A DNA stretch of 64,000 nt from Rhodococcus sp. AW25M09 (GTDB lineage Bacteria; Actinomycetota; Actinomycetes; Mycobacteriales; Mycobacteriaceae). Both the position numbers and the translations under genes were made by a program. The stretch is taken from NCBI RefSeq assembly GCF_000333955.1, contig NZ_CAPS01000104.1, forward strand, positions 1 to 64,000, in the 5' to 3' direction. The notes under the pieces were generated by a model. The model was not told the DNA's origin, made no database searches, and saw nothing but the letters and a program-made list of their open reading frames with translations. Below are positions 2,395 to 42,633 of the stretch, piece by piece (the stretch's first letter is position 1; each line of letters opens with the position of its first letter).

Positions 2395-2509
2395 TTCTGC
2401 CCCTCCCCAGGCTCGGCATGACTGAGTTCGTAGAAAGCAACAATATGTGTCGGTTGTTTCGGCCGAGTTTCGGGCGCATCGCCAGACCACCGAAGATCGG
2501 TAACAGAAA

Positions 2510-2529
2510 TTCACTACAGTTCGAGTGAA
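2510..2529. promoter_or_regulatory. Inverted repeat, candidate PucR operator
   Basis: TTCACT (2510-2515) and AGTGAA (2524-2529) form a perfect 6-bp inverted repeat with an 8-base spacer. It lies in the 183-base region between the divergent regulator and hydroxylase genes, about 50 bases upstream of the FAD-subunit start. A TACAGT hexamer at 2515-2520 overlaps it and could be a -10 element. Binding by the neighbouring regulator is inference. Confidence 0.4.
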
Positions 2530-2577
2530 CGCATCGGGCGGAGGACCCTGCCGGCGAAGACGAGGTGAACGAAGGCC

Positions 2578-3390
2578 ATGGATCTAGGCACTGTCGACGA
2601 CATTCTGCTTCCCGGCGCCCGCGAGGATCTGCCCCCGGGACGAGCCGACACCGCTGTGCTCGCGGGTGGAACCTGGTTGTTCTCGGAGAAACAGGATCAC
2701 CTGACTACCCTCGTCGACATCACGGCGTTGGGCTGGGAGCCGTTGACCGTGACCGAGACCGGGCTCGAGATCGCCGCCACCTGCACGATCGAGACGCTCG
2801 CGCGCTTCGAATCGCCGTGGCCTGCCACCGCGCTGTTCCCCCGTTGCGCTGCAGCGTTGTTGGCCTCGTTCAAGATCTGGAAGACCGCTACTGTCGGTGG
2901 CAACATCGCGCTGGCACTGCCTGCCGGTGCGATGATCTCGTTGACTGCAGCGCTCGACGGTATCGGGCAGGTGTGGTCGGGGCAGGGCCCCGATCACGAC
3001 TACCGAATCGCGATCGACGATCTGATCACCGGTCCGCATGCCAACGCCCTTCGGCCGGGAGATGTACTGCGCAGCATCGAGATTCCGCAGCGCGCACTCG
3101 AGGCGAGAACCGCGATTCGCACGCTGGCACTGTCGCCACTCGGACGCTCTGCGGCCGTGGTGATCGGCCGGGCAGACGCCGGTGGCGAGTTCGTCCTGAC
3201 GGTCAGTGCGTCGACGGTACGTCCCTTCGTCCTGCGGTTTCCGGCTGTGCCGACTGCCGCCGAACTCGACCACGCGCTCGAGGATGCCATCGGCCCCCAG
3301 CATTGGTACGACGACCCCCACGGCGCGCCGGACTGGCGTCGGCACATCAGTTGTACTGCAGCACAGCAAATTCGCGAGGAGTTGTCATGA
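2578..3390 (+). CDS. Molybdenum hydroxylase FAD subunit (xanthine dehydrogenase-type)
   Basis: This 270-residue protein matches the FAD-binding domain of molybdopterin dehydrogenases (XdhB/CoxM type). It has AVLAGGTWLF near residues 23-32, the first FAD loop, and TATVGGNIALALPAGAM near 100-117, the second FAD loop (usual form T.GGN...A.P..D). It would pass electrons from the [2Fe-2S] centres to NAD+ or another acceptor. The family is usually 260-300 residues, so this is a complete single-domain subunit. Its TGA overlaps the next start codon by 4 bases (ATGA), so the two subunits are translationally coupled. Substrate cannot be read from the sequence; the divergent PucR regulator favours a purine or related N-heterocycle. 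Confidence 0.85.
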   Translation: MDLGTVDDILLPGAREDLPPGRADTAVLAGGTWLFSEKQDHLTTLVDITALGWEPLTVTETGLEIAATCTIETLARFESPWPATALFPRCAAALLASFKIWKTATVGGNIALALPAGAMISLTAALDGIGQVWSGQGPDHDYRIAIDDLITGPHANALRPGDVLRSIEIPQRALEARTAIRTLALSPLGRSAAVVIGRADAGGEFVLTVSASTVRPFVLRFPAVPTAAELDHALEDAIGPQHWYDDPHGAPDWRRHISCTAAQQIREELS

Positions 3391-6101
3391 TCGTCGACAT
3401 CAACGGTGTACCGACCGACGTCTCTCCTCGGCCTGGCCAGTGCCTGCGCACGATGCTCCGCGAGCACGAGCATTTCGAGGTGAAGAAGGGCTGCGACGCA
3501 GGCGATTGCGGGGCGTGTTCGGTGCTCGTCGACGGCGAGCCGGTGCATTCGTGCATCTTCCCCGCATTCCGCGCGGCCGACCGCTCCGTCACCACGGTCG
3601 CGGGGCTCGGCACCACGGAGGATCTTCATCCGATGCAGAGCCGGTTCGTCGAGGCGGCCGGGTTTCAGTGCGGGTTCTGCACAGCAGGCATGGTCGTGAC
3701 CGCCTCGACCTTGACCGAGGACGATCTCGATGAACTTCCCGAGCGGCTGAAGGGAAATCTGTGCCGCTGCACCGGGTACCGAGCGATATCCGACGCGGTC
3801 TGCGGGGTGGTCAACACCGAAAAAGCGGTCGACGGTCCGGCTTGCGGACGTTCCCTCGCAGCACCGGCCAGTGCCCGCATCGTCACCGGAACCGAGCCCT
3901 ACACCCTCGACCATTCTCCTCCGGGCCTTCTGCACGCCAGTGTGCTCGGCAGTCCTCATGCACACGCGCGAATAGTCTCGATCGACACCGCTGCGGCCGA
4001 GCAGGTGCCCGGAGTGCATCTGGTCCTGACCGCGAAAGACAGCCCGCTGACAGCATTTTCGACGGCCCGGCACGATCGCCGGGTCGAGGACCCCGACGAC
4101 ACCCACGTCCTGGACACCGTCGTGCGCTTCATCGGACAGCGAGTGGCGATCGTCGTCGCCGAGTCGATCGCTGCCGCGCAGGAGGGGTGCCGCGCGCTGG
4201 CCGTCGAGTACGACGTGCTGCCCGCGGTGTTCGATCCCGAATCCGCGCTGGCACCCGGCGCACCGAAGATCCACGGCGACAAGGACTCGTCAGCTCGGAT
4301 CGCGGATCCGTCGCAGAATCTCGTCGCCGAGTTGCATGGCAGTACCGGGGATGTCGACGCCGCGGTACTGGCCGCAGCGGCGGTGGTGACCGGGCGGTGG
4401 ACGACGCAGCGAGTGCAACACGTGCACCTGGAGACGCACGGCACCATCGGGTGGCTGGACGAGACCGGGAGGCTGAACCTGCGCACCAGCACCCAGGTTC
4501 CGTTTCTGGTGCGCAACGAGATCTGCGAAATCTTCGGCTTGCCGCACGATCGCGTACGGGTGTTCACCGCGCGGGTCGGCGGCGGCTTCGGCGGCAAGCA
4601 GGAGTTGCTGACCGAGGACGTCGTGGCGATGGCAGTGCTCCGCACCGGTCGACCCGTGCAGTTCGAGTTCACGCGGACCGACGAGTTCACCGTCTCACCG
4701 TGCCGTCACCCGTTCCGAGTCGATGTCACCGCGGCTGCGAGCGCCGACGGCACGTTGACCGCTCTGTCGATCGATGTGCTCACCGATGCCGGTGCCTACG
4801 GCAATCACAGCGCCGGGGTGATGTTCCACGGATGCGGGGAATCCGTGGCCGTGTACCGCTGCGCGAACAAACGGGTCGATGCGAAGACGGTCTACACCAA
4901 CAACATTCCGTCGGGGGCGTTCCGGGGCTACGGATTGGGCCAGGTGATGTTCGCGATCGAATCGGCGATGGACGACCTCGCCCGAGAGCTCGACGTCGAT
5001 CCGTTCGAGTTTCGCCGACGCAACGTCATCGTCCCGGGCGACGACATCGTCGCCGCACACCTGGAGGGAGACGACCTGCAGTTCGGCAGCTACGGCCTCG
5101 ATCAGTGCATCGACCTTGCCGAGTCCGCCCTGCGACGGGGCAACGGCGAGCATGCACCTGCGGGCTGGAAGGTGGGCGAAGGCATGGCGGTGGCCATGAT
5201 CGCCACCATTCCGCCGCGCGGACACCGCGCCGAGACGTCTGTGGCATTGCTACCCGAGGGGCACTACGAGATACGCGTCGGGACAGCGGAATTCGGTAAC
5301 GGAACCACCACCGTGCACACACAGATCGCGGCGAGCGAGCTGTGTACCTCCGTCGATCGCATTCGGGTCGATCAATCCGACACCGACTCGACCACCTACG
5401 ACACCGGTGCCTTCGGTTCGGCAGGCACCGTGGTGGCAGGGAAGGCACTCTATGCTGCGGTCCGCAGCATGTCGGCACGGATCCTCGACCTCGCTGCAAC
5501 CGCGACCGGGCACCGGTACTCGGAGTGCACACTGGGTCCGGAGGGCGTGCGATGCGGGGACCGATTCGTCACCCTCGACGAGATTCTGGCACGGGCCGGA
5601 GGCTCACTCGTCACCGAAGGCGACAGTGGCGGATTACCGCGTTCTCTGGCGTTCAACGTCCAGGCATTCCGGGTAGCGGTGCACGAGGACACCGGCACGG
5701 TGAGGATCCTGCACTCGGTCCAGAGCGCAGACGCCGGCACGGTGCTGAACCCGCAGCAGTGCCGAGGGCAGGTCGAAGGTGGTGTAGCGCAGGCGATCGG
5801 CAGCGCGCTGTACGAGGAGATTGGTACCGACGGTGCCGGCCTGGTCACCACAGATTCCATCCGCAGCTATCACGTACCGCAGTTCGCGGACATTCCTCGT
5901 ACGGAAGTTCTGTTCGCCGACACCTACGACAGGTTGGGGCCGTTCGGCGCGAAGTCGATGAGCGAGTCTCCGTACAACCCCGTCGCACCGGCGTTGGCGA
6001 ACGCGATCCGTGACGCCGTCGGCGTCCGTCTTCACGACCTACCGATGTCCTCGGACCGCGTGTGGCGGGCCGTCAACGGTCGTAGAACGTCTGAAGAATG
6101 A
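3387..6101 (+). CDS. Fused [2Fe-2S]/molybdopterin subunit of a xanthine dehydrogenase-family oxidoreductase
   Basis: The 904-residue protein joins two subunits that are often separate. Residues 1-140 form a CoxS/XdhC-like iron-sulfur part: a plant-type [2Fe-2S] site with Cys36, Cys41, Cys44 and Cys56, then a second site with Cys95, Cys98, Cys126 and Cys128. Residues from about 160 form the aldehyde-oxidase/xanthine-dehydrogenase a/b hammerhead and molybdopterin domains, with GGGFGGK near 398-404. The C-terminal block that carries the catalytic glutamate reads KSMSESPYNP, placing that residue at about Glu860. The sequence around it departs from the common GxGE form. With the FAD subunit it would be an alpha-beta hydroxylase using a molybdenum cofactor. 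No XdhC-type sulfurase chaperone gene is nearby. The 3' end overlaps the convergent Lrp gene by 29 bases. Confidence 0.88.
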   Translation: MIVDINGVPTDVSPRPGQCLRTMLREHEHFEVKKGCDAGDCGACSVLVDGEPVHSCIFPAFRAADRSVTTVAGLGTTEDLHPMQSRFVEAAGFQCGFCTAGMVVTASTLTEDDLDELPERLKGNLCRCTGYRAISDAVCGVVNTEKAVDGPACGRSLAAPASARIVTGTEPYTLDHSPPGLLHASVLGSPHAHARIVSIDTAAAEQVPGVHLVLTAKDSPLTAFSTARHDRRVEDPDDTHVLDTVVRFIGQRVAIVVAESIAAAQEGCRALAVEYDVLPAVFDPESALAPGAPKIHGDKDSSARIADPSQNLVAELHGSTGDVDAAVLAAAAVVTGRWTTQRVQHVHLETHGTIGWLDETGRLNLRTSTQVPFLVRNEICEIFGLPHDRVRVFTARVGGGFGGKQELLTEDVVAMAVLRTGRPVQFEFTRTDEFTVSPCRHPFRVDVTAAASADGTLTALSIDVLTDAGAYGNHSAGVMFHGCGESVAVYRCANKRVDAKTVYTNNIPSGAFRGYGLGQVMFAIESAMDDLARELDVDPFEFRRRNVIVPGDDIVAAHLEGDDLQFGSYGLDQCIDLAESALRRGNGEHAPAGWKVGEGMAVAMIATIPPRGHRAETSVALLPEGHYEIRVGTAEFGNGTTTVHTQIAASELCTSVDRIRVDQSDTDSTTYDTGAFGSAGTVVAGKALYAAVRSMSARILDLAATATGHRYSECTLGPEGVRCGDRFVTLDEILARAGGSLVTEGDSGGLPRSLAFNVQAFRVAVHEDTGTVRILHSVQSADAGTVLNPQQCRGQVEGGVAQAIGSALYEEIGTDGAGLVTTDSIRSYHVPQFADIPRTEVLFADTYDRLGPFGAKSMSESPYNPVAPALANAIRDAVGVRLHDLPMSSDRVWRAVNGRRTSEE

Positions 6102-6510
6102 TCGTGCTGCGTGTCTGAACGTTGGCGGTGGCCCGGATCTCCTGCAACAAACGCTCGAGTGCCCGCGGCGACTCCACCCGAACCAGCAGCACGTAACTTT
6201 CCTCACCGGCAACCGAATGACACGACTCGATGGCCGAGATGTGCTTCAACCTGGCGGGAGCATCGTCCGGCTGGGCGGGATCGATCGGAGTGATGGCGAC
6301 GAACGCTGACAACGCGCGACCCAGAGCTTCCGGGTCCACCTGCGCGGTGTACCCACGGATCACCCGCCGCGACTCCAGCCGTCGAACTCTGGATTGAACG
6401 GCCGAGACCGACAAGGACGCTTTTTCAGCCAGCGTCGCCAAAGTGGCGCGGCCGTCGGACACCAGCTCGTCGATGATCAAGCGATCGACGCGATCGAGAT
6501 TTTCACTCAC
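6073..6510 (-). CDS. Lrp/AsnC family transcriptional regulator
   Basis: The 145-residue protein has the two-domain Lrp/AsnC layout. An N-terminal helix-turn-helix covers about residues 5-55 (LDRVDRLIIDELVSDGRATL, then LSVSAVQSRVRRLE), and an alpha-beta RAM ligand-binding domain covers about 65-140 (AFVAITPID...CHSVAGEESYVLLVRV). Length and layout are normal. These proteins form octamers and sense amino acids or related small molecules. It is convergent with the molybdenum hydroxylase gene and overlaps its last 29 bases. Its target could be its own promoter or the downstream membrane protease operon; the sequence does not decide this. Confidence 0.9.
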   Translation of the reverse strand: MSENLDRVDRLIIDELVSDGRATLATLAEKASLSVSAVQSRVRRLESRRVIRGYTAQVDPEALGRALSAFVAITPIDPAQPDDAPARLKHISAIESCHSVAGEESYVLLVRVESPRALERLLQEIRATANVQTRSTIILQTFYDR

Positions 6511-6607
6511 CTGCGCAATGTAGCCCAGTTCCGAGACGAATCAGCGCGCACGACCGCTTCTGCTGGTCGAATCGGTGTCTGCGACTCTTTCTGTTCGAAC
6601 AGCGAAG

Positions 6608-7318
6608 TCATACGAACAGCGGAGGTAGGGCGAGCACCATGACGGCAGACCAACTGACGTGCGTGAGAATCGGAGCCAGAATTCCGCCGGAGGCACGCCG
6701 CTGCAGGCCCATCACGTACCCCAGAAGCACTGCGGCGAAGCCCAGCATCGGGTTGCCCGACGCGAGCGTGGCTATTGCATAGACGACCGTGGAGATGATC
6801 ACCGGATGCTTGACCCCGATCGCTGCGTACAACGCGCCTCGGAAGAATATCTCCTCCGCGACACCGTTGAACAGCGCGATGAACACTATGAGCACCAACG
6901 AACCCACTCTGGCGTGCGCGAGCACATTCTCGGTGAATTCGGCCAGCGGAGGTATCTGCCGGACGACGAGACCGCCGAGCATGAACACTCCGCCTACGGC
7001 GAGACCGATCAGGATAGGGCTGACGATCGGTCGCCGGATCGACCCTCCGACCACTATGCGACCCAGATGCAGCGGACCCGACAGGATTCCGCCCACCGTC
7101 CACACCGCGGCCAACACCAGGGTCAGTGCGTAGAACACCGGGTCGCCCGGCTCGACCTTGAGCGAGAAGTAGAGCACCGTGGCACCGAGCACCAATGTGA
7201 TCAACACGACGATTCGCCGCTTGCGAAACGCAGCGTCGGACTGTCGGTGATCGCGCTCGACCGGATCGACCAGAGCGGATTTCATCACGTTCAGCGCGGT
7301 CGTCGACCACGTTCCCAT
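6608..7318 (-). CDS. CPBP family intramembrane glutamic protease
   Basis: The 236-residue protein carries the ABI/CPBP (CAAX protease-like, PF02517) motifs: EEIFFRG at about residues 153-159 (EExxxR) and a C-terminal ILTHVSW with the conserved His, set among six to eight hydrophobic segments. The family cleaves or processes membrane-embedded substrates; in Gram-positive bacteria many members modify or protect against peptides, but the substrate here is unknown. I chose the ATG at 7318, which overlaps the upstream TGA as TGATG; an in-frame GTG one codon earlier sits too close to the GAGGAGG ribosome site. It is coupled to the NAD(P)-binding gene upstream. Confidence 0.85.
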   Translation of the reverse strand: MGTWSTTALNVMKSALVDPVERDHRQSDAAFRKRRIVVLITLVLGATVLYFSLKVEPGDPVFYALTLVLAAVWTVGGILSGPLHLGRIVVGGSIRRPIVSPILIGLAVGGVFMLGGLVVRQIPPLAEFTENVLAHARVGSLVLIVFIALFNGVAEEIFFRGALYAAIGVKHPVIISTVVYAIATLASGNPMLGFAAVLLGYVMGLQRRASGGILAPILTHVSWSAVMVLALPPLFV

Positions 7319-8502
7319 CACGCCTCCTCGGTATCGGTCAGCCGACGCACGGCCGACGTCACACGTCGATTCACACCGGCCAGCACGTCGAGATTGGTCC
7401 TCACCGCGGCCGCTACAGGCGTCGAGTACAGCAGTCGACGCCCACCGAGAGCTTCGATCAAACTCCAGGTGCGGTCCGAGGACGCCGCAACACCGCGACG
7501 CCTGATCCCCAGAACATCACCGCCGCTCCACGCAGCGTCGGTGTTCGCCAACCGAAGCGGATCCTTCAGTGCGCACACACCGGGAGGCTCGCCCACCGTG
7601 CCCCGCACACTACGGGCCATGGCGTCTGCGATGGTGGTCAGACCATGTGGCGGGTCCGGGACGAGTTCGCGTATGCGACTCTCCGATGTCGTCATCGTGT
7701 TGTGCAGCGACCCCACCAGATCCTCGGCGAGGCCGGCGGGAACCGGAATGATCCTACCGATCACTTTGCCTGCGAGCGAGGTAGGCACGAACGGCACCGG
7801 CACACCGATGCGCTGAAGACCGGCGGCCTCGACGTACGCGAACACCAGATCGCGATAGGGCACCGCGTCCGGACCACCGATGTCGTAGGAACCCGCGGGA
7901 ACCTTCTCGGGATCGGCAGACGCGGCCAAGTAATGGAGCACGTCGTCGACAGCAATGGGCTGCACGGGCTCGGCGAGCCAACTCGGCAGCGGCAGCACCG
8001 GCAAGCGGTCGGCCAGATAGCGCAACATCTCGTACGACGTCGAACCGGCACCCAGGACGATCGCTGCTCGGAGCCAGACCAACTCGACGCCCTCGATCGT
8101 CAGAGCTTCGCCGACGTCCGCGCGACTCGCGAGATGCTCGGAAAGTTGATCGTCGTCGGGTACGAAACCGCCGAGATACACGATCCGACGGACACCTGCG
8201 CGGGCGGCAGCCGCAGCGAATTGCTCGGCCGACCTGCGGTCCTGAGCACGGTAATCGGACTCGCCGATGGCGTGCACGAGGTAGTAGGCCACGTCGATCT
8301 CGCCCGATTCGGCGAACGCGGCCGCACAGGACCCTTCGTCGGTGACGTCGAGCGAGACCGCGGTGACGGAGTCGTAGAAATCGAAGGCCCGCAGATTGTC
8401 GGGTGTACGAGAGCCGACGACAACGTCGACGTCGTCCGTCAGAAGAGCCGCCACGAGTCGCGACCCGATATACCCGCTGGCACCGGTGACGAGAGCTCTC
8501 AT
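7318..8502 (-). CDS. NAD(P)-binding SDR/epimerase-like protein
   Basis: This 394-residue protein begins with the Rossmann motif TGASGYIGSRL (residues 6-16). It continues with DVAYYLVHAIGES and RIVYLGGFVPDD, typical of extended or atypical short-chain dehydrogenases of the NAD(P)H-binding (YwnB/UbiE-associated) type. The usual YxxxK catalytic pair is not evident, so it may be a binding or regulatory protein or act on an unusual substrate. About 110 C-terminal residues extend beyond the core fold. It overlaps the protease gene by one base, so both are probably made from one message. No specific substrate can be named. Confidence 0.75.
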   Translation of the reverse strand: MRALVTGASGYIGSRLVAALLTDDVDVVVGSRTPDNLRAFDFYDSVTAVSLDVTDEGSCAAAFAESGEIDVAYYLVHAIGESDYRAQDRRSAEQFAAAAARAGVRRIVYLGGFVPDDDQLSEHLASRADVGEALTIEGVELVWLRAAIVLGAGSTSYEMLRYLADRLPVLPLPSWLAEPVQPIAVDDVLHYLAASADPEKVPAGSYDIGGPDAVPYRDLVFAYVEAAGLQRIGVPVPFVPTSLAGKVIGRIIPVPAGLAEDLVGSLHNTMTTSESRIRELVPDPPHGLTTIADAMARSVRGTVGEPPGVCALKDPLRLANTDAAWSGGDVLGIRRRGVAASSDRTWSLIEALGGRRLLYSTPVAAAVRTNLDVLAGVNRRVTSAVRRLTDTEEA

Positions 8503-8556
8503 GCGTCGAGGCTAACGGCACTCGGGACGTAGCGTCGGTGTGGCATTGTCGCTCCT

Positions 8557-9162
8557 ATGGCTCTGGTGTTGGCAGGTGTGGTGCTCCCCGATCCTCTCGG
8601 TACCGAAACGGTGCTCCGGCGCGGAGTCGCGGTGGCGCGGGTCGGTGCAAGCTGGATGCTCACCACGACCGAGATGGCGCTTACCCTGCCCAGCCGAATC
8701 GAAGCACTGCTGAGCCACATAGAGACATTGATGACACGAATCGACCGTGTGATCGACTCGGCCGACGCGGTGGTCGCCAACGTGCAGCGGACGACCGGTG
8801 CCGCCGACGACGTGGTCGCGTCGGCATCGGTCGCCTCACACACTGCGCTGGAGCTGATCGAGCTGTTCGATCCCATCGCCAAGAAATCCGAACCCATGGC
8901 ACGCAGATTTGTCGACAATCTGTCCGACGAAGAGGTCGACGCCGCGATCGCCATGGTCGATCAGCTACCCGGACTCCTCGAACACATGGAGTCTCTGTTG
9001 CCCATTCTCGCCACCCTCGACACGGTCTCGCCCGAGATTCACGAGTTGCTCGGGGTCACCAAGGATGTCCGACGCGCGGTCATCGGCATCCCGGGGTTCA
9101 AGTTCTTCCGCAACCGCGGCGAGGACAAGCTGGCCGACGAGGAGCGAGAGGCCGAGCAGTAA
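8557..9162 (+). CDS. Conserved actinobacterial coiled-coil protein of unknown function
   Basis: The 201-residue protein is rich in Ala, Val, Leu and Asp and predicted to be mostly helical. Residues about 50-110 (RIEALLSHIETLMTRIDRVI and on) show heptad-like spacing, suggesting a coiled coil or amphipathic bundle. The tail is charged (EDKLADEEREAEQ). There is no signal peptide, membrane segment or catalytic motif. Similar proteins occur in mycobacteria and rhodococci under the name 'hypothetical', which is recollection only. The start is uncertain because no clear ribosome site precedes the ATG at 8557; a shorter form starting near Met34 is possible. It is convergent with the acyl-CoA dehydrogenase gene, with only 3 bases between the stops. 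Confidence 0.65.
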   Translation: MALVLAGVVLPDPLGTETVLRRGVAVARVGASWMLTTTEMALTLPSRIEALLSHIETLMTRIDRVIDSADAVVANVQRTTGAADDVVASASVASHTALELIELFDPIAKKSEPMARRFVDNLSDEEVDAAIAMVDQLPGLLEHMESLLPILATLDTVSPEIHELLGVTKDVRRAVIGIPGFKFFRNRGEDKLADEEREAEQ

Positions 9163-9165
9163 ACG

Positions 9166-10284
9166 CTACTTCACGAACGCGAACTCGTCGCCGGCGTGGA
9201 AGCGGGCGAGGGTTTCGGAGATCGACCGTCGTGATGGCGGATGAAATGCGAAGGCGTGCAACGCCGCTGCGATGTAGCCGATTTCAGGGGACTTGATGAA
9301 GCCGATTCCACCGAGGGATTCGATCGCCGCCGAACTGCTCCGTACCAGCGCATCGCGAATCGCGATCCGGTTGAAGAGCAGTCGTGCCGAGATGTCTTGT
9401 CCGCGTTCGCCTTCGTCGACCGCTCGCGCAACGTTCTCGATGGCCGCCATGGACGTCTCGAGTTCCGCAGCCGCACGGACGTAGCCCTCGTGGTCACCCT
9501 TGTCCTGCTCGATCATTCGCTCGAGCAACGCCGTTGCAGCACCGATGTAGTTCGCGGTGATCAGCATTCCGAACCAGAGGTACCCGGTCATCTCGTGCAC
9601 ACCGTCGGGATCGTCGTCCTTGTTCGGCAGAACCAGGCTGGCGGGCACCTCGACGTCTTCGAGTAGCACCTCCTCGCTCTGCGCTCCGGCCAGGATGTCG
9701 GTGGTCCAGAAGGGCTTCACACTCATCCCGGGCAGGTTCGCCGGAATCAACGCCACCGCACGGTCACCGTTGTCGATCTCGACGCTGCAGGTCAACAGGT
9801 CCATGGACCGCGCCAGGCTGCACGGCTTCTTGCTGCCGTTGACGATGTAGTTGTCGCCCTTCTTGACGGCGGTCATGGTCGGGATGAACACGCTTCCGCC
9901 GGTGACGCCCTCGGAGAAGCCGGAGGCCACGATTGCTTTCTGCTCCACCAGCCCCTTGATGAGGGCCCGATCGTCTTCGGTGGCAGCCTGAGCGAACTCG
10001 TTGAGCGAAGCCAGCGACAGGTGGTGCATCGTCGTCCCTGCACCGAGAGAGGGTGAGCGGCTACCGATCGCTCGTTGCGCGCGCACCGCATCGATAGCCG
10101 GGGCACCCAGACCGCCCAGGTTCTTCGGGACGCACAGCGCAGTTCCGCCGAATTCGCGAAACTTGTCGATCGCGTCGGAGTCACGAGCTTCCAATTGAGC
10201 GAGTGGCGTCTCGTCCAGGTACGCCAACAATCCCGGAAGGTACCGCTCCAGAGTTTCTCTTTCGCGCACCATAAGGCCAGTCAT
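9166..10284 (-). CDS. Acyl-CoA dehydrogenase family protein, natural-product type
   Basis: The 372-residue protein has the three-domain acyl-CoA dehydrogenase fold. It shows an N-terminal helical part with GGTALCVPKNLGGLG, a central beta domain (SGFSEGVTGGSVFIPTMTA, then NGSKKPCSLA), and a C-terminal helical domain ending ESLGGIGFIKSPEIGYIAAA. The usual YEGT catalytic-glutamate motif is replaced by HAFAFHPPSRRS, a tail I associate with dehydrogenases in secondary metabolism, so its base and carrier (CoA or acyl carrier protein) are uncertain. I chose the ATG at 10284 because AAGGAG lies 8 bases upstream. It is divergent from the oxoamine synthase operon, across a shared AT-rich control region, and may desaturate the acyl chain used there. 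That link is inference. Confidence 0.8.
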   Translation of the reverse strand: MTGLMVRERETLERYLPGLLAYLDETPLAQLEARDSDAIDKFREFGGTALCVPKNLGGLGAPAIDAVRAQRAIGSRSPSLGAGTTMHHLSLASLNEFAQAATEDDRALIKGLVEQKAIVASGFSEGVTGGSVFIPTMTAVKKGDNYIVNGSKKPCSLARSMDLLTCSVEIDNGDRAVALIPANLPGMSVKPFWTTDILAGAQSEEVLLEDVEVPASLVLPNKDDDPDGVHEMTGYLWFGMLITANYIGAATALLERMIEQDKGDHEGYVRAAAELETSMAAIENVARAVDEGERGQDISARLLFNRIAIRDALVRSSSAAIESLGGIGFIKSPEIGYIAAALHAFAFHPPSRRSISETLARFHAGDEFAFVK

Positions 10285-10295
10285 AGCTAATCTCC

Positions 10296-10338
10296 TTGTG
10301 TCACCGATTGTGTGCAAATTGTGTCACAGATTGAGTGC
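10296..10338. repeat. Two 20-bp direct repeats next to the dehydrogenase start
   Basis: Copies at 10296-10315 and 10319-10338 match at 18 of 20 bases. Both begin TTGTGTCAC, contain GATTG and end GTGC, with a 23-base period. They lie directly upstream of the dehydrogenase ribosome site on the minus strand, so a bound protein could block its transcription or translation. Confidence 0.65.
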
Positions 10339-10369
10339 GACATAGTGGTCGTGGAACGTTGCCGTTCGG

Positions 10370-10381
10370 TTCAAATTTGAA
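10370..10381. promoter_or_regulatory. 12-bp palindrome, candidate operator
   Basis: TTCAAATTTGAA reads the same on both strands. It lies between the divergent promoters expected for the dehydrogenase and the oxoamine synthase operon, about 85 bases from the dehydrogenase start. A perfect AT-rich palindrome of this size stands out in a high-GC genome. No regulator gene is adjacent, so the binding protein is unknown. Confidence 0.4.
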
Positions 10382-10640
10382 ACAGTTGAATTCGCGCTGG
10401 TCGTCGACGATACCCCGCGACCTGCGGTTATAAACGTAAAGTTTTCTTAAAATTAGAAGAGCGAAAAGAAACCTCGGATATTTTTTTGCAACATTTTCCA
10501 CAAGCATCTCCGGATCTTTACGTCACAAACCTCCGATCGATTTTCTTCGATCCAATACCCATCGAACATCGTCACCGCTCCGAATTACTTGGGAATTCGC
10601 GAAAATTGCAATCTGACTCTGTAAGGAGTTCTGGTCGATA

Positions 10641-11870
10641 ATGGCTGTCAACAGACTGATCAAGAGGCTCGGCGGGGACGCAAGAGTCGATCTGCTGCGC
10701 GCAACACGGGAAGCAGACGTAGTCCCGTACTTCCGCAAGATGGAGTCCGCCGTAGCGCCCGTGGTACGGGTCGAGGGCAAGGACAAGATCATGCTCGGGT
10801 CCAACAACTATCTCGGCATCGCCGACCACCCCAAGGTCGTCGAAGGTGCCCAGCATGCGTTGGACACCTTCGGCAGCGCGGTGACCGGTAGCCGACTGCT
10901 CAACGGCACGCTGGACCTGCACGTCGAACTCGAGCACGAGATAGCGCAGTGGCACGGGACCGAGGACGCCTTGGTCTTCACCACCGGCTATCAGACGAAC
11001 CTGGGCACGATCAGCGCGATCGTAGGACCCGGCGACACGATCATCGTCGATTCGGCGGCACACGCGTCGATTCGAGACGGCAGTGCACTGTCCGGTGCCA
11101 CCGTGGTCAAGTTCAAGCACAACGACATGGCCGACCTGGAAGCGAAACTGCAGCTGCCCGTCGTCGACGACGGTGCCGTGCTGGTCATTGTCGATGGCCT
11201 CTACTCCATGGAGGGTGATCTCGCCCCTCTCGATGCAATATCGGACCTGTGCCTGCGCTATCACGCAGCACTGATGGTCGACGAAGCTCACAGCCTCGGC
11301 ATCTACGGTCCCGAGCTCACCGGCGCTGCGGAACTGTTCGGGATCAACAACGATGTCGACGTCGCGATGGCGTCGCTGTCCAAGAGCCCCAGCTCCACCG
11401 GCGGTTTCGTCACCGGTTCGAGCGATCTCATCGACACGCTCCGCATCAAGGCGCGCGCCTTCCTGTTCACGACGTCCGGTGTGCCTGCCGCCCTCGGTGC
11501 CGCCTTGGCTTCGGTTCGCCTGATCCGTAGCGATGAGGGCAAAGACCGTGCCCGACGCGTCCTCGACAATGCCGAAATCCTGCGCGGCGGCTTGCAATCG
11601 GCGGGCCTCGACGTAGCAGGACGGTCGGCGACACCGACGGGTGACACTGCCTCACCGATCGTGTCACTGCACGTGGGTGAGGATCTTGCGGCGATGAGTC
11701 TGTGGAAGACGTTGTACGACCGCGGTATCTTCACCAGCGCCGCACTGCACCCGGCGGTGCCGAAATCCGGCGCTCTGCTTCGCCTGTGTGTGATGGCCAC
11801 ACACACCGAGCAGCAACTGGCCACCGCCACCGAGCAGATAGTGGAAGCGGTCGCAGGAATGCCGACATGA
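10641..11870 (+). CDS. Alpha-oxoamine synthase, serine-palmitoyltransferase-like (PLP-dependent)
   Basis: The 409-residue protein belongs to the alpha-oxoamine synthase family (PLP fold type I), which condenses an acyl thioester with an amino acid and releases CO2. Expected active-site residues are present: His141 (SAAHASIRDG), Asp214 and His217 (VDEAHSLG) and the PLP lysine Lys248 (ASLSKSPSSTGGF). The SKSxxSxGGF form, TGSRLLNGT at 82-90, KFKHNDMADL and YSMEGDLAPL resemble bacterial serine palmitoyltransferase more than biotin (BioF) or threonine (Kbl) enzymes. No biotin genes are near. AAGGAG precedes the ATG at a rather long distance (13 bases). It overlaps the following SDR gene by 4 bases. 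The amino acid and acyl donor are not known. Confidence 0.82.
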   Translation: MAVNRLIKRLGGDARVDLLRATREADVVPYFRKMESAVAPVVRVEGKDKIMLGSNNYLGIADHPKVVEGAQHALDTFGSAVTGSRLLNGTLDLHVELEHEIAQWHGTEDALVFTTGYQTNLGTISAIVGPGDTIIVDSAAHASIRDGSALSGATVVKFKHNDMADLEAKLQLPVVDDGAVLVIVDGLYSMEGDLAPLDAISDLCLRYHAALMVDEAHSLGIYGPELTGAAELFGINNDVDVAMASLSKSPSSTGGFVTGSSDLIDTLRIKARAFLFTTSGVPAALGAALASVRLIRSDEGKDRARRVLDNAEILRGGLQSAGLDVAGRSATPTGDTASPIVSLHVGEDLAAMSLWKTLYDRGIFTSAALHPAVPKSGALLRLCVMATHTEQQLATATEQIVEAVAGMPT

Positions 11871-13435
11871 GCGAGAAGCCGCGCGGTCTACGCATCGCGG
11901 TCACCGGAGCCACCAGTGACTTCGCGGCCGCGATACTTCCGACACTGTTCGACGATCCCGATGTGGACTCCGTCATCGGGATAGCCCGACGCCCAGCCCG
12001 TCTCGAACACCCCAAGCTCACCTCGGTGCGCTCCGACATCCGCTCACCGGACCTCGAGGAGACATTTGCCGGCTGCGACACGGTGATGCATCTGGCGTTC
12101 GTGGTCGAGGAGATGAAAGACAAGGCCGAGACTCACGACATCAATCTGCGCGGATCGCGAAACGTGATCGACTCCGCGTACCGCGCGGGGGTCTCGCGGG
12201 TGGTGATCGCGTCGAGCATCAATGCCTACGGTGCGGACATCACCCCGGAGCCACTCACCGAGAACACCTATCCCGCAGGTGATCCGGATCGCTACTACTT
12301 CTACGACAAGGCAGAAGTGGAGCACTACGCGGAGTGGTGGTTACGCAGACATCCCGGAGAGATGGCCATCTCGATGCTGAGGTGCACTTACATCGTAGGA
12401 CCGGACTTCGCCAACGACGGAATCGACCAGTTCACCGGCCCGGTCGGAGCATTTCCCGAGGCAGATCGCGCGTCGTATCAATTCCTGTATCAAGATGACA
12501 TGGCCGACGCATTTCATCGTGCGGCGAAGACCGACCTCGTCGGTCCGTACAACCTCGGCCCGGTGGACTGGGTGGGTGTACGCGAACTCGCCGCGATGCA
12601 GGGTCAGCTCATGTTCGACGTTCCGCAGAAGGCCGCCACTCACGTCGCGAACGTTGCGTTCCGGCTGAGGTTGACGCCGTTTTCGGGGCAATGGGTCACG
12701 CCCGGCGAACCCATCGTCGATTCGTCGGCTCTCGGCCGCGCCACCGGCTGGGCACCGACACTCACTGCGCACGAGAGTGCCGCGATGATGATTCTGTTGC
12801 AGGGCAAGTCGCTGCTGCGACGCGTCGACGCCCTCGAGCGCGGCATCGCCTGCGAGGCGGCGCTGCGTCCGGCATCCGAGGCCGTCGCGCTCGACCGCGC
12901 GGCCGTCGCAGCTCTCCAGGTGGAACATCGACAGCTCGACACCGGGACCGGCAGCGTGCACGTCGAGATTCATCGAGCATCTGCGGAATCCGGACAGTCG
13001 GTCGTGCTCGTCGCCGACCGCGGTCTGCACGCGCGCGCTCTGACGCCCTTGGCAACGGACATCGCAGCCGGTGGCGTCGATGTCGTGGTGCTCGACCTAC
13101 CCGGGCACGGCTTGAGTACCGGTCCGCGAGGTCGATCTTCGGCAACACAGACAATCGAGGCCGTGGATGCAGCGCTCCGATTCGCTCGGATCGAACTCGA
13201 TACCGCTCCCATCACCGTGCGCAGCGGTACCCGCCATGCAGCGGACACGCTGATCGGCGGAATTCTCAGGCGAGCCACTGGCTGGACGACGATGGAAGAA
13301 CCCGCACATCCCGATGGGTTGATGCCGACGAGGACGCGGGTCGACGGGACAGCCGATATCCCGTTCGTATCGACGGCCGCCGACGCTCTGGCCCTTTGCA
13401 CAACGCCGATGACGGGCCTCAGCGCCGCTCGGTGA
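11867..13435 (+). CDS. SDR/NAD-dependent epimerase fused to a degenerate alpha/beta-hydrolase domain
   Basis: The 522-residue protein has two parts. Residues about 10-320 are an extended SDR: a Rossmann start (RIAVTGATSDFAAAI, with the glycine pattern reduced to GxxxxxA), DTVMHLAFVVEEM, RVVIASSINAYGAD, and a YYFYDKAEVEHY segment that can supply the Tyr-Lys pair. Residues about 370-522 resemble an alpha/beta hydrolase (VDVVVLDLPGHGLSTG). The nucleophile elbow is TVRSGTRHAAD in place of G-x-S-x-G, and the oxyanion HG motif is absent, so this part looks inactive. It is translationally coupled (ATGA) to the oxoamine synthase, so reduction of the 3-keto product is the obvious role, which is inference. 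The 3' end overlaps the DUF1992 gene by 17 bases. Confidence 0.75.
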   Translation: MSEKPRGLRIAVTGATSDFAAAILPTLFDDPDVDSVIGIARRPARLEHPKLTSVRSDIRSPDLEETFAGCDTVMHLAFVVEEMKDKAETHDINLRGSRNVIDSAYRAGVSRVVIASSINAYGADITPEPLTENTYPAGDPDRYYFYDKAEVEHYAEWWLRRHPGEMAISMLRCTYIVGPDFANDGIDQFTGPVGAFPEADRASYQFLYQDDMADAFHRAAKTDLVGPYNLGPVDWVGVRELAAMQGQLMFDVPQKAATHVANVAFRLRLTPFSGQWVTPGEPIVDSSALGRATGWAPTLTAHESAAMMILLQGKSLLRRVDALERGIACEAALRPASEAVALDRAAVAALQVEHRQLDTGTGSVHVEIHRASAESGQSVVLVADRGLHARALTPLATDIAAGGVDVVVLDLPGHGLSTGPRGRSSATQTIEAVDAALRFARIELDTAPITVRSGTRHAADTLIGGILRRATGWTTMEEPAHPDGLMPTRTRVDGTADIPFVSTAADALALCTTPMTGLSAAR

Positions 13436-13940
13436 AAGTATGGCGGATTCGCGTCCACCATGACGTTCTTCGAGAATCAGGGGTCGCTGCGTGAGGTGCG
13501 GCCGACTGCGAGCGATGCTCGCGCTCCAGTCGGTCTACCTCCGCACGGTTGGTTCTCCACTCTTCGAGCCATGCCTCGACGTCCACCGGACCGAGCGGCA
13601 CCATCGGCGGAGTGGGGAAGCGAATCCAGTCGACGATGCGAGCGTTCAGCTCCTCCAACGCATCTCGTGCCGAATCCTCGCGCCGAATGCGGATCAGCGT
13701 GGACGGGAGACGTTCGATCTCCTTACGCAGCTGCAGCGCGGTGGGCAACAGCGCATCCGCAGGAAGATTCTCGCGCTTCAGATAGCCACGAACCCACCAC
13801 AGCTCATCCGCAGGGTCGCCGATCGGGATCGGCTTGCCGGTACCTTCGAGCCCATCGAAGGCACCGTCGTCCTGCGCCTGACGAATCTGCTTGTCGACCC
13901 AGGACTCGAACGTGACTCCCGGTTTTTTGCGTTCGGTCAC
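13419..13940 (-). CDS. DUF1992 (DnaJ-homologue subfamily C28) domain protein
   Basis: The 173-residue protein matches DUF1992. FESWVDKQIRQAQDDGAFD is the typical entry helix. It is followed by LEGTGKPIPI, WWVRGYLKREN and LRKEIERLPS, with the rest helical and basic. The same domain is found in the DNAJC28 protein of eukaryotes, but no J-domain is present here and the bacterial function is unknown. I chose the GTG at 13940; the frame stays open to 14450, but that extension has no family similarity and would overlap the next gene. The C-terminal 40 residues are Ser/Arg-rich. Its stop lies inside the 3' end of the convergent SDR-hydrolase gene. Confidence 0.8.
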   Translation of the reverse strand: MTERKKPGVTFESWVDKQIRQAQDDGAFDGLEGTGKPIPIGDPADELWWVRGYLKRENLPADALLPTALQLRKEIERLPSTLIRIRREDSARDALEELNARIVDWIRFPTPPMVPLGPVDVEAWLEEWRTNRAEVDRLEREHRSQSAAPHAATPDSRRTSWWTRIRHTFTERR

Positions 13941-14071
13941 GCCATCGACTGTAGATCCGGTGGCCCGCGCTCTGCCACGTCTGCCGCACCGGCAGTGTTC
14001 ACGAGCGGCCCACCCGCGCGGGATTCCGCCGGCATCCGACGATCCTGAACCGTCCGGTGCGGACTCGACGG

Positions 14072-14323
14072 TCAGCCGTACTCGGTAACCAGCCGATCGA
14101 ACTCGTCCCGGTCGATCACCTGGGGTTCGTTGATGGCCAACGCCTGCGCATATTTGCTCGCCAGGTGGTAATCGCGCCCGATCGGCCCCTGCTCGGCGTC
14201 GTCCTCGTCGGACTCGATGCTCGCGCCGGGAGACACCTCGTTCTGCAGGCCGTTGGACTTGCTGCCGAGCAGAGCGTCGAGTTTCGCGGAAATCTTCTGC
14301 ATGGTCTCTAGGTCGTCGGTCAT
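14072..14323 (-). CDS. Small acidic hypothetical protein
   Basis: This 83-residue protein is acidic in the middle (ASIESDEDDAEQG) and helical at both ends (METMQKIS-like opening; YAQALAINEPQVIDRDEFDRLV). No signal peptide, membrane span or known motif is visible. It is read from an ATG with only a weak upstream ribosome site, between the DUF1992 gene and the divergent helicase gene. Codon use agrees with a real gene (strong GC preference at third positions). I do not recognise the family. Confidence 0.55.
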   Translation of the reverse strand: MTDDLETMQKISAKLDALLGSKSNGLQNEVSPGASIESDEDDAEQGPIGRDYHLASKYAQALAINEPQVIDRDEFDRLVTEYG

Positions 14324-14419
14324 GAGCTCGGTGTACCCGGAACCCCCGAATCGACACCGGCCAGTGATCGGGAATTGCTCGCAGGGTTACCTGTCGGTGC
14401 CCGAGGGCATGATGGTGGG

Positions 14420-17400
14420 ATGGCCAGGCAGAATATCGGCACCGAAGCATCGGGCACGCTGTCGGTGATGGAAAAGCTGTCGCGGCCCACCCGCGAATGG
14501 TTCACCGGCGCATTCCCGGCTCCTACGTCCGCGCAGCTGGGAGCGTGGTCGTCGATCTCGAGCGGCTCTCACACCCTCGTGGTCGCTCCGACCGGCTCGG
14601 GTAAGACACTCTCGGCGTTTCTGTGGGCGCTGGACGAACTGGCGCAACTGGGTGCGGACAGCACCCGCAAGACGAAGGTCCTCTACATTTCCCCGCTCAA
14701 GGCTCTCGCCGTCGACGTCGAGCGCAACCTGCGCGCACCTCTGGTCGGCATCACGCAGACGGCCAAGCGGCTCGGCCTCGACCCGCCCGAGATCTCGGTC
14801 GGGGTCAGATCCGGCGATACCAGTGCCGCCGATCGCCGGAACATGATCAAGACTCCCCCGGACATCCTGATCACCACCCCCGAGTCGCTGTTCCTCATGC
14901 TCACGTCGGCGGCGCGAGACATCCTCGCCGAGGTCGACACCGTGATCGTCGACGAAGTACACGCCGTCGCCGGCACCAAACGCGGCGCGCATCTGGCGGT
15001 GTCGCTCGAACGGCTCGACGCAATGCTGGAGAAGCCCGCACAGCGCATCGGACTGTCCGCCACGGTGCGCCCGCACGAAGAGGTGGGCCGCTTCCTGGCC
15101 GGAGCAGCACCCATCGAGATCGTTGCCCCACCCGCTCCGAAGACCTTCGACCTGACGGTTCAGGTGCCCGTGGAGGACATGACCGAACTGGGCGTCGCCG
15201 ACCCGAATGCCGATACCTCCGCCGCTCCCCCGACCCAGGGATCGATCTGGCCGCACGTCGAGGAGAAGATGGTCGATCTCATCCTCGAGCACAAATCGTG
15301 CATCGTCTTCGCCAACTCGCGACGGTTCGCGGAACGACTCACCGCGCGACTGAACGAGGTGTACGCCGAACGGATCGGCGACGGAGTCGACACACAGCAC
15401 AAGCCGCCGTCGCAGGTCGGTACTCCGAACGACGTGAACCACGGTGCCGATCCGCTGTTGGCGAGGGCCCACCACGGCAGCGTCAGCAAGGATCAGCGCG
15501 CGCTGATCGAAGACGATCTCAAGACCGGCAGGTTGCGCTGCGTAGTCGCCACCAGCAGCCTCGAACTCGGAATCGACATGGGCGCAGTCGATCTGGTCGT
15601 CCAGGTCGAAGCGCCACCATCGGTGGCGAGCGGGTTGCAACGCGTCGGGCGCGCGGGGCACCAGGTCGGCGAGATCTCCAAGGGCGTGTTGTTCCCCAAA
15701 CACCGCACCGACCTGATCCACTGCGCCGTCACCGTAGAACGGATGACGTCGGGCAAGATCGAGGCACTGTTCGTACCCGCCAACCCCCTCGACGTGTTGG
15801 CCCAGCAGACGGTCGCGGCCTGCGCTCTCGAACCGATCGACGCCGAGGACTGGTTCGACTCCGTGCGTCGCACCGGCAGTTTCGCCACCTTGCCCCGTTC
15901 GGCCTACGAATCGACCCTCGATCTGCTTTCGGGTCGCTACCCATCCGACGAGTTCGCCGAACTGCGGCCGCGGCTCGTGTGGGACCGCGACGCCAACACT
16001 CTGACCGGCCGTCCCGGGTCGCAGCGATTGGCCGTCACCTCCGGCGGCACCATTCCCGACCGCGGACTGTTCACGGTGTACATGGTGGGCGAAAAGCAGT
16101 CCAGGGTAGGCGAGCTGGACGAGGAGATGGTCTACGAATCGCGAGTGGGTGACGTGTTCGCACTCGGTGCCACCAGCTGGCGCATCGAGGAGATCACCCA
16201 CGATCGGGTGCTGGTCAGCCCGGCCTACGGTCAACCGGGCCGACTCCCGTTCTGGCACGGCGACGGCCTGGGCCGTCCCGCAGAACTGGGCCAGGCCCTA
16301 GGCGCGTTCCTCCGCAGCACCACCGACCGCAGCAACCTCGCCGAGCGACTGAGCACCGACGGCCTCGACGCCAACGCCGTCAACAACCTCATCGCGCTGC
16401 TCGACGAGCAATTGGAGGCGACCGGCCAACTCCCCACCGACAAGACGATGATCGTCGAGCGGTTCCGCGACGAACTCGGCGACTGGCGACTGGTGCTGCA
16501 TTCCACCTACGGCCAGCAGGTGCACGCCCCGTGGGCCCTCGCGGTGGGCGCAAGACTGATCGAGCGCTACGGGATCGACGCCGCACCCACGGCCTCCGAC
16601 GACGGCATCATCGTCCGACTCCCAGACACCGACGATCAGCCACCCGGGGCGGAGCTGTTCGTGTTCGAGCGCGACGAGATCGCCGACATCGTCACCGAGC
16701 AGGTCGGCGGATCGGCGCTGTTCGCCTCCAGGTTCCGTGAATGTGCTGCGCGTGCGCTGCTCCTCCCCCGCCGCAACCCGGGCAAACGTGCGCCGCTCTG
16801 GCAGCAGCGCCAGCGCTCGGCTCAGTTGCTCGACGTGGCACGCAAATACCCGACGTTCCCGATCCTGCTCGAAACCGTCCGGGAGTGCCTGCAGGACGTC
16901 TACGACCTCCCCGCGCTCGAGGACATCCTGGCCCGAATCGGTCGACGCCAGATCAGGATCGTCGACGTCGAGACGCCGTCACCGTCTCCGTTCGCCAATT
17001 CGCTGCTGTTCAACTACGTCGGCGCATTCATGTACGAGGGCGACAGCCCGCTCGCCGAACGCCGAGCGGCCGCACTGTCTCTCGACTCGGCGCTCCTGGC
17101 CGAACTACTCGGCCGCGTCGAACTGCGAGAGTTGCTGGACGACAGCGTCATCACCACCACCGAACTCGAGCTACAGCGGCTGCCCGAGGATCGACGCGCC
17201 AAGGACATCGAGGGCGTGGCGGATCTGCTGCGGCTGCTCGGCCCGTTGACCGTAGAGGAAGTCGGCCTACGAACCCACGGCGACGAATACCCGATCTGGC
17301 TCACCGAGCTGGCCGACGCCAAGCGGGCCATGGAGGTCTCGTTCGCAGGCAAGAGCTGGTGGACGGCCATCGAGGACGCCGCTCGATTGCGCGATGCACT

Positions 17401-42168: not shown

Positions 42169-42633
42169 ATGCCCGAGCAGCCGCCCATTGCACTCGACGA
42201 TGTCTCCAAAGCGATCATCGAACAGCTCCAGGAGGACGGGCGACGCTCGTACTCCGCCATCGCCAAAGCCGTCGGTCTCTCGGAAGCCGCTGTGCGTCAA
42301 CGAGTTCAACGTCTGACGGACTCCGGCGTCATGCAGATCGTCGCCGTGACCGATCCGGTACAGGTCGGATTCGAGCGGCAGGCCATGATCGGCATCAAGT
42401 GCACCGGAGACAGTTACGCCCTGTCGGAGGAGTTGTCGGCGATCGACGCCATCGACTACGTCGTCCTGACGGCGGGCTCGTTCGACATCGTCGTGGAAGT
42501 GGTCTGCGAGGACGACGAACAACTGCTGCAGATCCTGAACAAGCAGATCCGCAGCCTGGACGGTGTTACCAGCACCGAAACGCTGGTCTATCTCAAACTC
42601 GTCAAGCAGCAATACAATTGGGGAACACGATGA
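42169..42633 (+). CDS. Lrp/AsnC family transcriptional regulator
   Basis: The 154-residue protein has an N-terminal winged helix-turn-helix (ALDDVSKAIIEQLQEDGRRS, then LSEAAVRQRVQRL, about residues 8-60) and a RAM domain (IGIKCTGDSYALSEELSA..., about 75-145). It is closest in style to regulators that sit beside omega-amino acid/polyamine aminotransferases. It overlaps the aminotransferase by 4 bases (ATGA), so regulator and enzyme are made together, the arrangement expected when the enzyme's substrate is the effector. The repeats upstream (42050-42119) are likely binding sites. Confidence 0.9.
   Translation: MPEQPPIALDDVSKAIIEQLQEDGRRSYSAIAKAVGLSEAAVRQRVQRLTDSGVMQIVAVTDPVQVGFERQAMIGIKCTGDSYALSEELSAIDAIDYVVLTAGSFDIVVEVVCEDDEQLLQILNKQIRSLDGVTSTETLVYLKLVKQQYNWGTR

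Follow-up and report, generated by a model that had tools for sequence, protein, structure and literature searches.

A candidate pathway for an N-oxygenated sphingoid-like amino lipid in Rhodococcus sp. AW25M09

The window analyzed here, the whole of a 64,000-nucleotide stretch from the 5.6 Mb genome of Rhodococcus sp. AW25M09 (contig NZ_CAPS01000104.1, positions 1 to 64,000), contains within positions 9,166 to 13,435 the genes for an α-oxoamine synthase (AOS), a short-chain dehydrogenase/reductase (SDR), and a flavoenzyme related to the acyl-CoA dehydrogenases (ACADs), the last of which is transcribed in the direction opposite to AOS-SDR. These three genes, referred to as the trio, probably act together in one pathway whose product is an N-oxygenated sphingoid-like amino lipid; each of the enzymes is of a known kind, and their combination appears to be undescribed. 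The divergent flavoenzyme is the most informative of the three genes, although it was missed as such in a first-pass annotation of the sequence. By family it is a VlmH-type enzyme, and the AOS, as judged by phylogeny, lies on the serine palmitoyltransferase (SPT) side of its superfamily and is neither a BioF nor a Kbl. The conservation of the trio is far beyond chance and, at least in two other genomes (G062 and G172), it is placed together with enzymes of N-N bond formation.

The divergent flavoenzyme and the conservation of the trio

The first-pass annotation described the divergent gene as an acyl-CoA dehydrogenase whose usual catalytic motif is replaced. The replacement is borne out, because FHPPS occupies the place of the usual ACAD YEG stretch (the comparison concerns the YEG position only), but the label gives way to a VlmH-type assignment based on identity, tree, and motifs. 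The flavoenzyme contains the motifs SPSL, ASGFSEG, KKPCSLARSMDLL, and FHPPS and aligns over 97% of its length, at 44% identity (368 columns, E 5e-102), with VlmH from the valanimycin-type cluster of Streptomyces sp. NBC_00212; the 14 trio members of set A2 are 33-44% identical to the same protein. It should be noted that the record of this plasmid-encoded protein reads “acyl-CoA dehydrogenase” and names only a “VlmB-like protein” nearby, the VlmH label being assigned here from the surrounding genes, which encode DUF2156 (VlmA), VlmO-like, flavin reductase, VlmB-like, seryl-tRNA synthetase (SerRS), and pyridoxal phosphate (PLP) decarboxylase proteins. The motifs KxPCS and HPP, both defined in this analysis, are found in 34/34 and 33/34 VlmH-type rows, respectively, and both are present in the flavoenzyme of the window. 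VlmH itself N-hydroxylates isobutylamine, according to two reports (PMC9379638, PMC7347517).

In a 37-row tree, which took in 16 of the 17 lower-tier homologues described below (L185, a close relative of L184 by neighborhood, was left out), the trio flavoenzymes form one clade (99/100) and, together with the VlmH-like rows, one group that is split 100/100 from three ordinary ACADs. Because none of the three outgroup chains extends as far as the HPP position, the fair control for this motif is an ordinary ACAD of the window (49458-50663), which has all of the ACAD Pfam domains and YEG, lacks KxPCS and HPP, and is 24.7% identical to the flavoenzyme over 40%. The flavoenzyme and VlmH share the same Pfam pattern, with the N-terminal and middle ACAD domains and no C-terminal hit. 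A role as a fatty-acyl dehydrogenase was rejected on VlmH family membership, the flavoenzyme also having no Pfam match to the ACAD C-terminal domain and FHPPS in place of YEG, and prolyl oxidation of the PigA/RedW type on the weakness of the matches (59 and 51 bits versus cut-offs of 500 and 650).

A profile of the flavoenzyme matched 49 of 251 genomes sampled from the family (E <= 1e-50), with a score gap from 490 to 379 bits, and the VlmH-type homologues below this gap are designated the lower tier. In a class sample of 394 genomes it matched 10 (E <= 1e-60), the seven outside the family all being of the lower tier. Around 17 lower-tier genes, the neighbors (counted from protein clusters, with one member per cluster named by Pfam and the VlmO-like proteins by alignment) include a class-III aminotransferase and an SRPBCC-type protein (14 loci each), LPG_synthase_C, which is VlmA-like (11), flavin reductase and a small VlmO-like membrane protein (9 each), aldehyde dehydrogenase and NAD_binding_4 reductase (7 each), and an AurF-like protein (4); loci L199 and L200 have none of these azoxy-type neighbors. 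This gene content matches that of aliphatic azoxy clusters, given in PMC9379638 as VlmH/VlmR, VlmA (PF09924), VlmB, VlmO, a transaminase, and a dehydrogenase, and therefore supports the VlmH-type identity of the third gene of the trio. As the amine source of most lower-tier loci is an aminotransferase, the AOS would supply the amine in the trio. A separate observation concerns L201 (Nostoc sp. C052 plasmid, 1463-15710), where the record annotation places a VlmH-type gene with nitric oxide synthase, two SDRs, a desaturase, a class-III aminotransferase, an SRPBCC protein, a formyltransferase, and a DevBCA exporter.

The association between flavoenzyme and AOS is close. The AOS is present in 42 of the 251 family genomes and 13 of the 31 genera (E <= 1e-75), and a strong flavoenzyme homologue in 38 of these 42, being absent from G066, G197, G198, and G207; in all 38 cases the two genes share a contig, their matched regions being 91-1064 bp apart (Fisher p 7e-41 for co-occurrence, kinship not being corrected for). 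The pair is found in 11 of the 31 sampled genera, including Rhodococcus- and Dietzia-like bacteria. Within a sample of 37 genomes of the genus, judged to include Rhodococcoides corynebacterioides and Rhodococcus sp. 14-1411-2a, the AOS is found in 27 (E <= 1e-80), with identities that fall into sets of 91-100%, 72-77%, and 57-59% and with two copies in G035.

Gene neighborhoods were compared in a set of 39 from 37 genomes, many of which are close kin and not independent. The set does not hold several genus genomes and six AOS genomes (G091, G120, G167, G204, G207, and G238); for five of these six, adjacency of AOS and flavoenzyme is known from coordinates only, and G207 is without a strong third gene. 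By tblastn (E <= 1e-10), the AOS was found in 39/39 neighborhoods, the third gene in 35/39, and the SDR in 34/39, and with SDR orthologues that lie farther along in L048/L214 and L051/L213, where longer stretches were used, the complete trio is present in 35/39. Five gene orders occur. The third gene is divergent in two of them, one with AOS-SDR and one in which DUF2505 accompanies the AOS and the SDR is opposed; in two others it follows (AOS-SDR-third gene) or precedes (third gene-AOS-SDR) the other two genes; and the fifth is a long cluster in R. phenolicus and G172. An MMPL gene, in each case matching the MMPL profile, lies <=7 genes from the AOS in 11/39 neighborhoods, and in the loci designated C-type, genes recognized as MFS by inspection of their sequences lie beside the SDR; these we take to be of the DHA2 type. 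Several local features may be recorded here. Eight C-type loci (L035-L040, L049, and L050) have a DUF2505 gene by the AOS, of which one member was scanned, and the C-type Rhodococcoides loci lie near rplJ-rplL and an mkl-YrbE (Mce-type) transporter set, again named by eye. L053 and L057 have AOS relatives with a carrier protein, an AMP ligase, and MMPL nearby and no VlmH-type gene, and L057 encodes an FMO-like protein with a weak N-monooxygenase match that is a possible substitute N-oxygenase. An AOS match with an internal TAG (G204:C37:16707-17903) and, in L207, a VlmO match with two internal TGA codons represent decayed copies or sequencing errors.

The long clusters connect the trio with azoxy and hydrazine chemistry, VlmO being a hydrazine synthase. 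In R. phenolicus DSM 44812 (G062; L051, L213) and G172 (L048, L214), the trio lies in one same-strand cluster with VlmO-like and VlmA-like genes, in the order P450, MMPL, AOS, VlmH-like, unknown, PPDK-like, class-III aminotransferase, VlmO-like, FAD oxidase (G062 only), a weak tocopherol-cyclase match (below cut-off), VlmA-like, and SDR, the last being of the trio type (388 and 400 bits). The VlmO-like rows keep D51, H82, H110, and D114, the four residues described as essential in VlmO (PMC11705231). Such genes are rare in the family: VlmO-like proteins (E <= 1e-8) occur in 6 of 251 genomes, two of them AOS genomes, and VlmA-like proteins (E <= 1e-40) in 2 of 131, a scan in which G172, whose VlmA was seen in its neighborhood, is unmatched and was probably not drawn.

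The synthase and the reductase

The AOS motifs given in the first-pass annotation, SLSKSPSSTGGF, TGSRLLNGT, and YSMEGDLAPL, are present in the sequence, as are His141, Asp214, His217, and Lys248, and in a 17-member alignment of the AOS family His141, Asp214, and Lys248 are invariant and His217 is nearly so. According to PMC10196870, the PLP/L-serine residues of Sphingobacterium SPT are Asn52, Ser81, His138, Asp210, His213, and Lys244. All of these align with identical residues of the AOS (N55, S84, H141, D214, H217, and K248). Several residues of this site are common to AOS enzymes generally, and their retention therefore does not fix the amino acid substrate. Among NCBIfam models, those of SPT rank first, at 380 bits (cut-off 640) and 349 bits (cut-off 500), followed by bioF at 336 (cut-off 426); HemA reaches 227 of 338 bits. 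The best PDB matches are the SPT chains 8guh and 3a2b (Sphingobacterium; E ~1e-86). The AOS nevertheless misses the curated SPT equivalog cut-offs (380/640, 349/500, and 288/670 bits), whereas two Bacteroidota reference SPTs pass the curated cut-off with 699 and 716 bits.

In a 56-row tree with SPT, BioF, and Kbl sets, from which HemA is absent, the actinobacterial AOS family (22 rows, with Conexibacter and Thermoleophilaceae) forms one clade (100/99); a 100/96 split separates the BioF and Kbl rows from the SPT side, to which this clade belongs, the BioF rows having been labeled by score or by location beside bioA. The grouping with BioF or Kbl that would have spoken against the SPT-type assignment of the first-pass annotation was thus not obtained. 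The SPT side also holds the Bacteroidota SPTs and 16 unlabeled AOS proteins of other phyla, and in this and the flavoenzyme tree L061, L199, L200, 2jgt, and BioF_L143 are on long branches and of unsure placement. The SPT-type assignment is therefore upheld by the tree and the catalytic residues and qualified by scores below the curated cut-offs (380 vs 640 bits).

It is very improbable that the AOS is simply the BioF or Kbl of the organism. It is the only bioF-model match at E <= 1e-40 in the genome carrying the window, which contains bioB, but its score of 336 bits falls short of the bioF cut-off of 426, and in 32 of the 37 genus genomes a second, higher-scoring BioF (391-405 bits) is encoded 76-178 bp from bioA, whether or not the AOS is present. 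The same 32 genomes are those with a bioA over the cut-off, and the five without the bioA/BioF pair (G000, G001, G011, G012, and G035) all have the AOS. It should be recognized that the bioF cut-off is passed in 0/37 genus genomes, separate BioF proteins included, so that rank and neighborhood, rather than the cut-off, carry this argument. Neither a bioA over the cut-off nor another bioF-model match at E <= 1e-40 was found in the genome carrying the window, where a lone BioF would be of little use. The BioF/Kbl identity was accordingly rejected on score, on the separation of the BioF and Kbl rows in the tree (100/96), and on the separate BioF beside bioA. The earlier remark that no biotin genes are near holds for the window proteins given a Pfam scan (8 + 10 proteins, not all genes); a class-III aminotransferase of the window (42630-43997) scores 299 bits against the bioA cut-off of 405. 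As an aside, the presence of bioB with no over-cut-off bioA and no BioF in this genome (G000), unlike 32/37 of the genus, may reflect biotin auxotrophy or an assembly gap.

The SDR has the anatomy of a reductase, with YxxxK (YFYDK) and Arg41 after the second strand. An Arg at this location is generally associated with a preference for NADPH, and Arg41 suggests this cofactor for the SDR. In Foldseek searches the model groups with GalE-type SDRs. The reading of this protein as a 3-keto reductase, already proposed in the first-pass annotation, gains from these residues and from its adjoining the AOS, while the reduction itself is predicted and a C-terminal domain had been overlooked. This domain matches Hydrolase_4 at 24.6 bits (cut-off 27), and its predicted structure is partly of low confidence; its sole GxSxG string is in a GHGLSTG loop, and no later nucleophile elbow was recognizable by string search or in the model. 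It is present in 7/12 aligned SDRs and absent from 5/12, which are 304-347 residues long. A sphingoid-like amino alcohol is a plausible product of AOS and SDR.

Proposed pathway and alternative explanations

In the pathway proposed, the AOS would, as expected of its family, condense serine, alanine, or glycine with an acyl thioester and release CO2 to form an α-amino ketone; the acyl donor is probably an acyl-CoA, because the set adjoins no gene for a carrier protein. Reduction of the ketone to an amino alcohol would fall to the SDR, with NADPH as the probable cofactor, and the flavoenzyme, for which the family assignment is secure and the substrate is predicted, would act as a VlmH-type flavin monooxygenase with a flavin reductase encoded elsewhere to oxygenate the primary amine at least as far as a hydroxylamine. 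These two steps could occur in either order. Serine as the amino acid would lead to an N-hydroxysphinganine-like lipid and alanine to its 1-deoxy form, and in R. phenolicus and G172, VlmO and VlmA would carry the hydroxylamine on to a hydrazine or azoxy lipid, the long cluster of these genomes being a candidate azoxy lipid pathway with the AOS as amine source. The product is probably an exported lipid, since an MMPL or MFS gene lies beside the set in some related genera.

Several observations weigh against this interpretation. The set is accessory, the AOS being absent at E <= 1e-80 from 10/37 genus genomes, and the trio is broken in 4/39 neighborhoods (L044, L053, L056, and L057). The best PDB sequence matches of the flavoenzyme are ordinary ACADs (47 bits), with DszC weak, whereas the best match of VlmH is the monooxygenase DszC; its best NCBIfam match is PigA (59 bits). 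For its predicted structure (pLDDT 88), Foldseek hardly separates TdsC/DszC, isovaleryl-CoA dehydrogenase, and nitrososynthases in rank, so that the fold alone does not decide its identity. In the 37-row tree the joining point of the trio clade among the VlmH-like rows is not resolved and the outgroup branch is very long. A dedicated flavin reductase, VlmA, VlmB, and an azoxy-type SRPBCC protein were not found at E <= 1e-4 in the 40 neighborhoods as first fetched; the two PF01613 flavin reductases of the genome carrying the window are encoded on other contigs, from where they could serve as partners of the flavoenzyme. Neither VlmO (E <= 1e-8) nor VlmA (E <= 1e-40) was found in this genome, and the pathway there should therefore stop at the N-oxygenated amine or use other enzymes; azoxy formation in this genome is unlikely, and its completion by the known route was rejected. 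No transporter gene was seen adjoining the trio in the window, and serine, the chain length, and the reduction are inferred only.

An ordinary start of a ceramide-type pathway, with the AOS as SPT, the SDR as a CerR-like reductase, and the flavoenzyme as an unrelated neighbor or an ACAD that prepares the acyl chain, would account for the SPT model (380 bits) and SPT chains being the best NCBIfam and PDB matches of the AOS, for its side of the tree, and for the adjoining SDR. This is nonetheless unlikely, because the flavoenzyme is VlmH-type and co-inherited with the AOS in 38/42 genomes, the AOS scores under the SPT cut-offs, and no acyl carrier protein (ACP) or acyl-ACP synthetase is among the 8 scanned proteins around the trio. 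The Caulobacter-like sphingolipid logic of the first-pass annotation thus survives in the SPT-side AOS with its SDR, but the VlmH-type gene points to an N-oxygenated product and not to the Caulobacter ceramide route. There is also a small chance that the trio is an incomplete or remodeled azoxy pathway, in which unrelated enzymes elsewhere in the genome convert the hydroxylamine to an N-N product. Its placement with VlmO and VlmA in G062 and G172 is consistent with this, and the DUF2505 gene by the AOS of the eight C-type loci may parallel the SRPBCC gene of lower-tier loci, the two folds being presumably related, but VlmO-like proteins are found in only 2/42 AOS genomes and VlmA in 2 of 131, the genome carrying the window having neither. 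Formation of an N-oxygenated sphingoid-like amino lipid by the three enzymes remains the preferred explanation.

Locus layout and comparison with known systems

The features of the locus are listed in Table 1. The coupling of AOS and SDR by an ATGA overlap (11867-11870) and the divergence of the AOS from the third gene are as first annotated. The flavoenzyme gene probably starts at an ATG (10284) preceded by AGGAG; a TTG at 10317 is disfavored.

Table 1. Features of the trio locus in the window
Feature	Coordinates	Strand	Basis or details
VlmH-type (ACAD-fold) flavin-dependent amine N-hydroxylase (predicted)	9166..10284	-	372 aa; VlmH identity, tree, motif alignment, model
Divergent intergenic region, candidate promoters for both arms	10285..10640	.	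Position and sequence only
SPT-like α-oxoamine synthase (AOS)	10641..11870	+	409 aa; N55, S84, H141, D214, H217, K248, R381
Predicted 3-keto reductase, an extended SDR of the Epimerase family (YFYDK, Arg41) that carries an additional C-terminal domain	11867..13435	+	ATGA overlap with AOS
SDR C-terminal domain (~residues 353-480), like first half of α/β-hydrolase	12923..13306	+	Hydrolase_4, alignment, model

Two kinds of enzymology that ordinarily do not occur together meet in the trio: the synthesis of sphingoid bases and azoxy-type nitrogen oxygenation. The chances are about even that apparently undescribed lipids are formed in eleven or more genera of mycolate-producing actinobacteria. These would be sphingoid-type amino alcohols with a hydroxylated or further oxidized nitrogen, often exported by MMPL or MFS proteins and, in some rhodococci, converted further into azoxy or hydrazine lipids. 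With the key gene annotated as an acyl-CoA dehydrogenase, such a compound, whether a lipid of the envelope or a secreted metabolite, may have escaped notice. The AOS represents a new amine source for the genome mining of azoxy compounds, and the three-gene set gives a clear, testable prediction of mass.

In the literature covered, most subscription papers lying outside that coverage, no report was found that connects an AOS with either VlmH or an azoxy gene cluster, as far as the available portions of the sources extend, or that describes N-hydroxy sphingoid, hydroxylamine, or azoxy lipids; among the matches listed on actinobacterial sphingolipids, titles and the beginnings of abstracts gave no gene-level report for Rhodococcus. 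Both “oxoamine synthase” and “azoxy” do occur in two papers that are, by title, a review of sphingolipids and one of mycotoxins (PMC10791800, PMC11211685). Because 179 VlmA/VlmH pairs have been counted in 3,146 actinobacteria (PMC9379638), and the individual pairs were not compared with the present loci, this result is not proof of novelty. An SPT-like protein of Mycobacterium tuberculosis, BioF2, has no known role according to a review (PMC12910592).

Of the characterized SPTs, that of Sphingobacterium (3A2B/8GUH; Bacteroidota) shares with the AOS the residues of the PLP and substrate sites, provides its closest PDB chains as SPT does its closest curated model, and is on the same side of the tree, but the two are only ~40% identical, the AOS reaches 380 rather than 640 bits, and it belongs to an actinobacterial clade of its own (100/99). 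The spt-cerR genes of Caulobacter resemble the AOS-SDR pair in the coupling of a synthase to a reductase gene, whereas the set in the window adds a predicted N-hydroxylase, and its scanned neighbors include neither an acyl carrier nor an acyl-ACP synthetase. The azoxy clusters of valanimycin, KA57-A, and azodyrecin differ in their amine source, which in the published accounts consulted is a decarboxylase or a reductase plus transaminase, and no AOS is among the genes shown for the 17 lower-tier loci; they have in common with the trio the VlmH-type step and, in R. phenolicus and G172, its occurrence with VlmO and VlmA. In the set of the window, VlmR, VlmA, VlmO, and VlmB are not alongside and the amine would come from an AOS, in contrast to the decarboxylase or aminotransferase of VlmH systems. 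With VlmH of the valanimycin pathway and its azodyrecin counterpart (the Ady3/Ady10 pair), the flavoenzyme nevertheless shares its length, the KxPCS and HPP motifs, an identity of 44% over 97% to the VlmH orthologue, and the presence alongside of a PLP enzyme that makes an amine.

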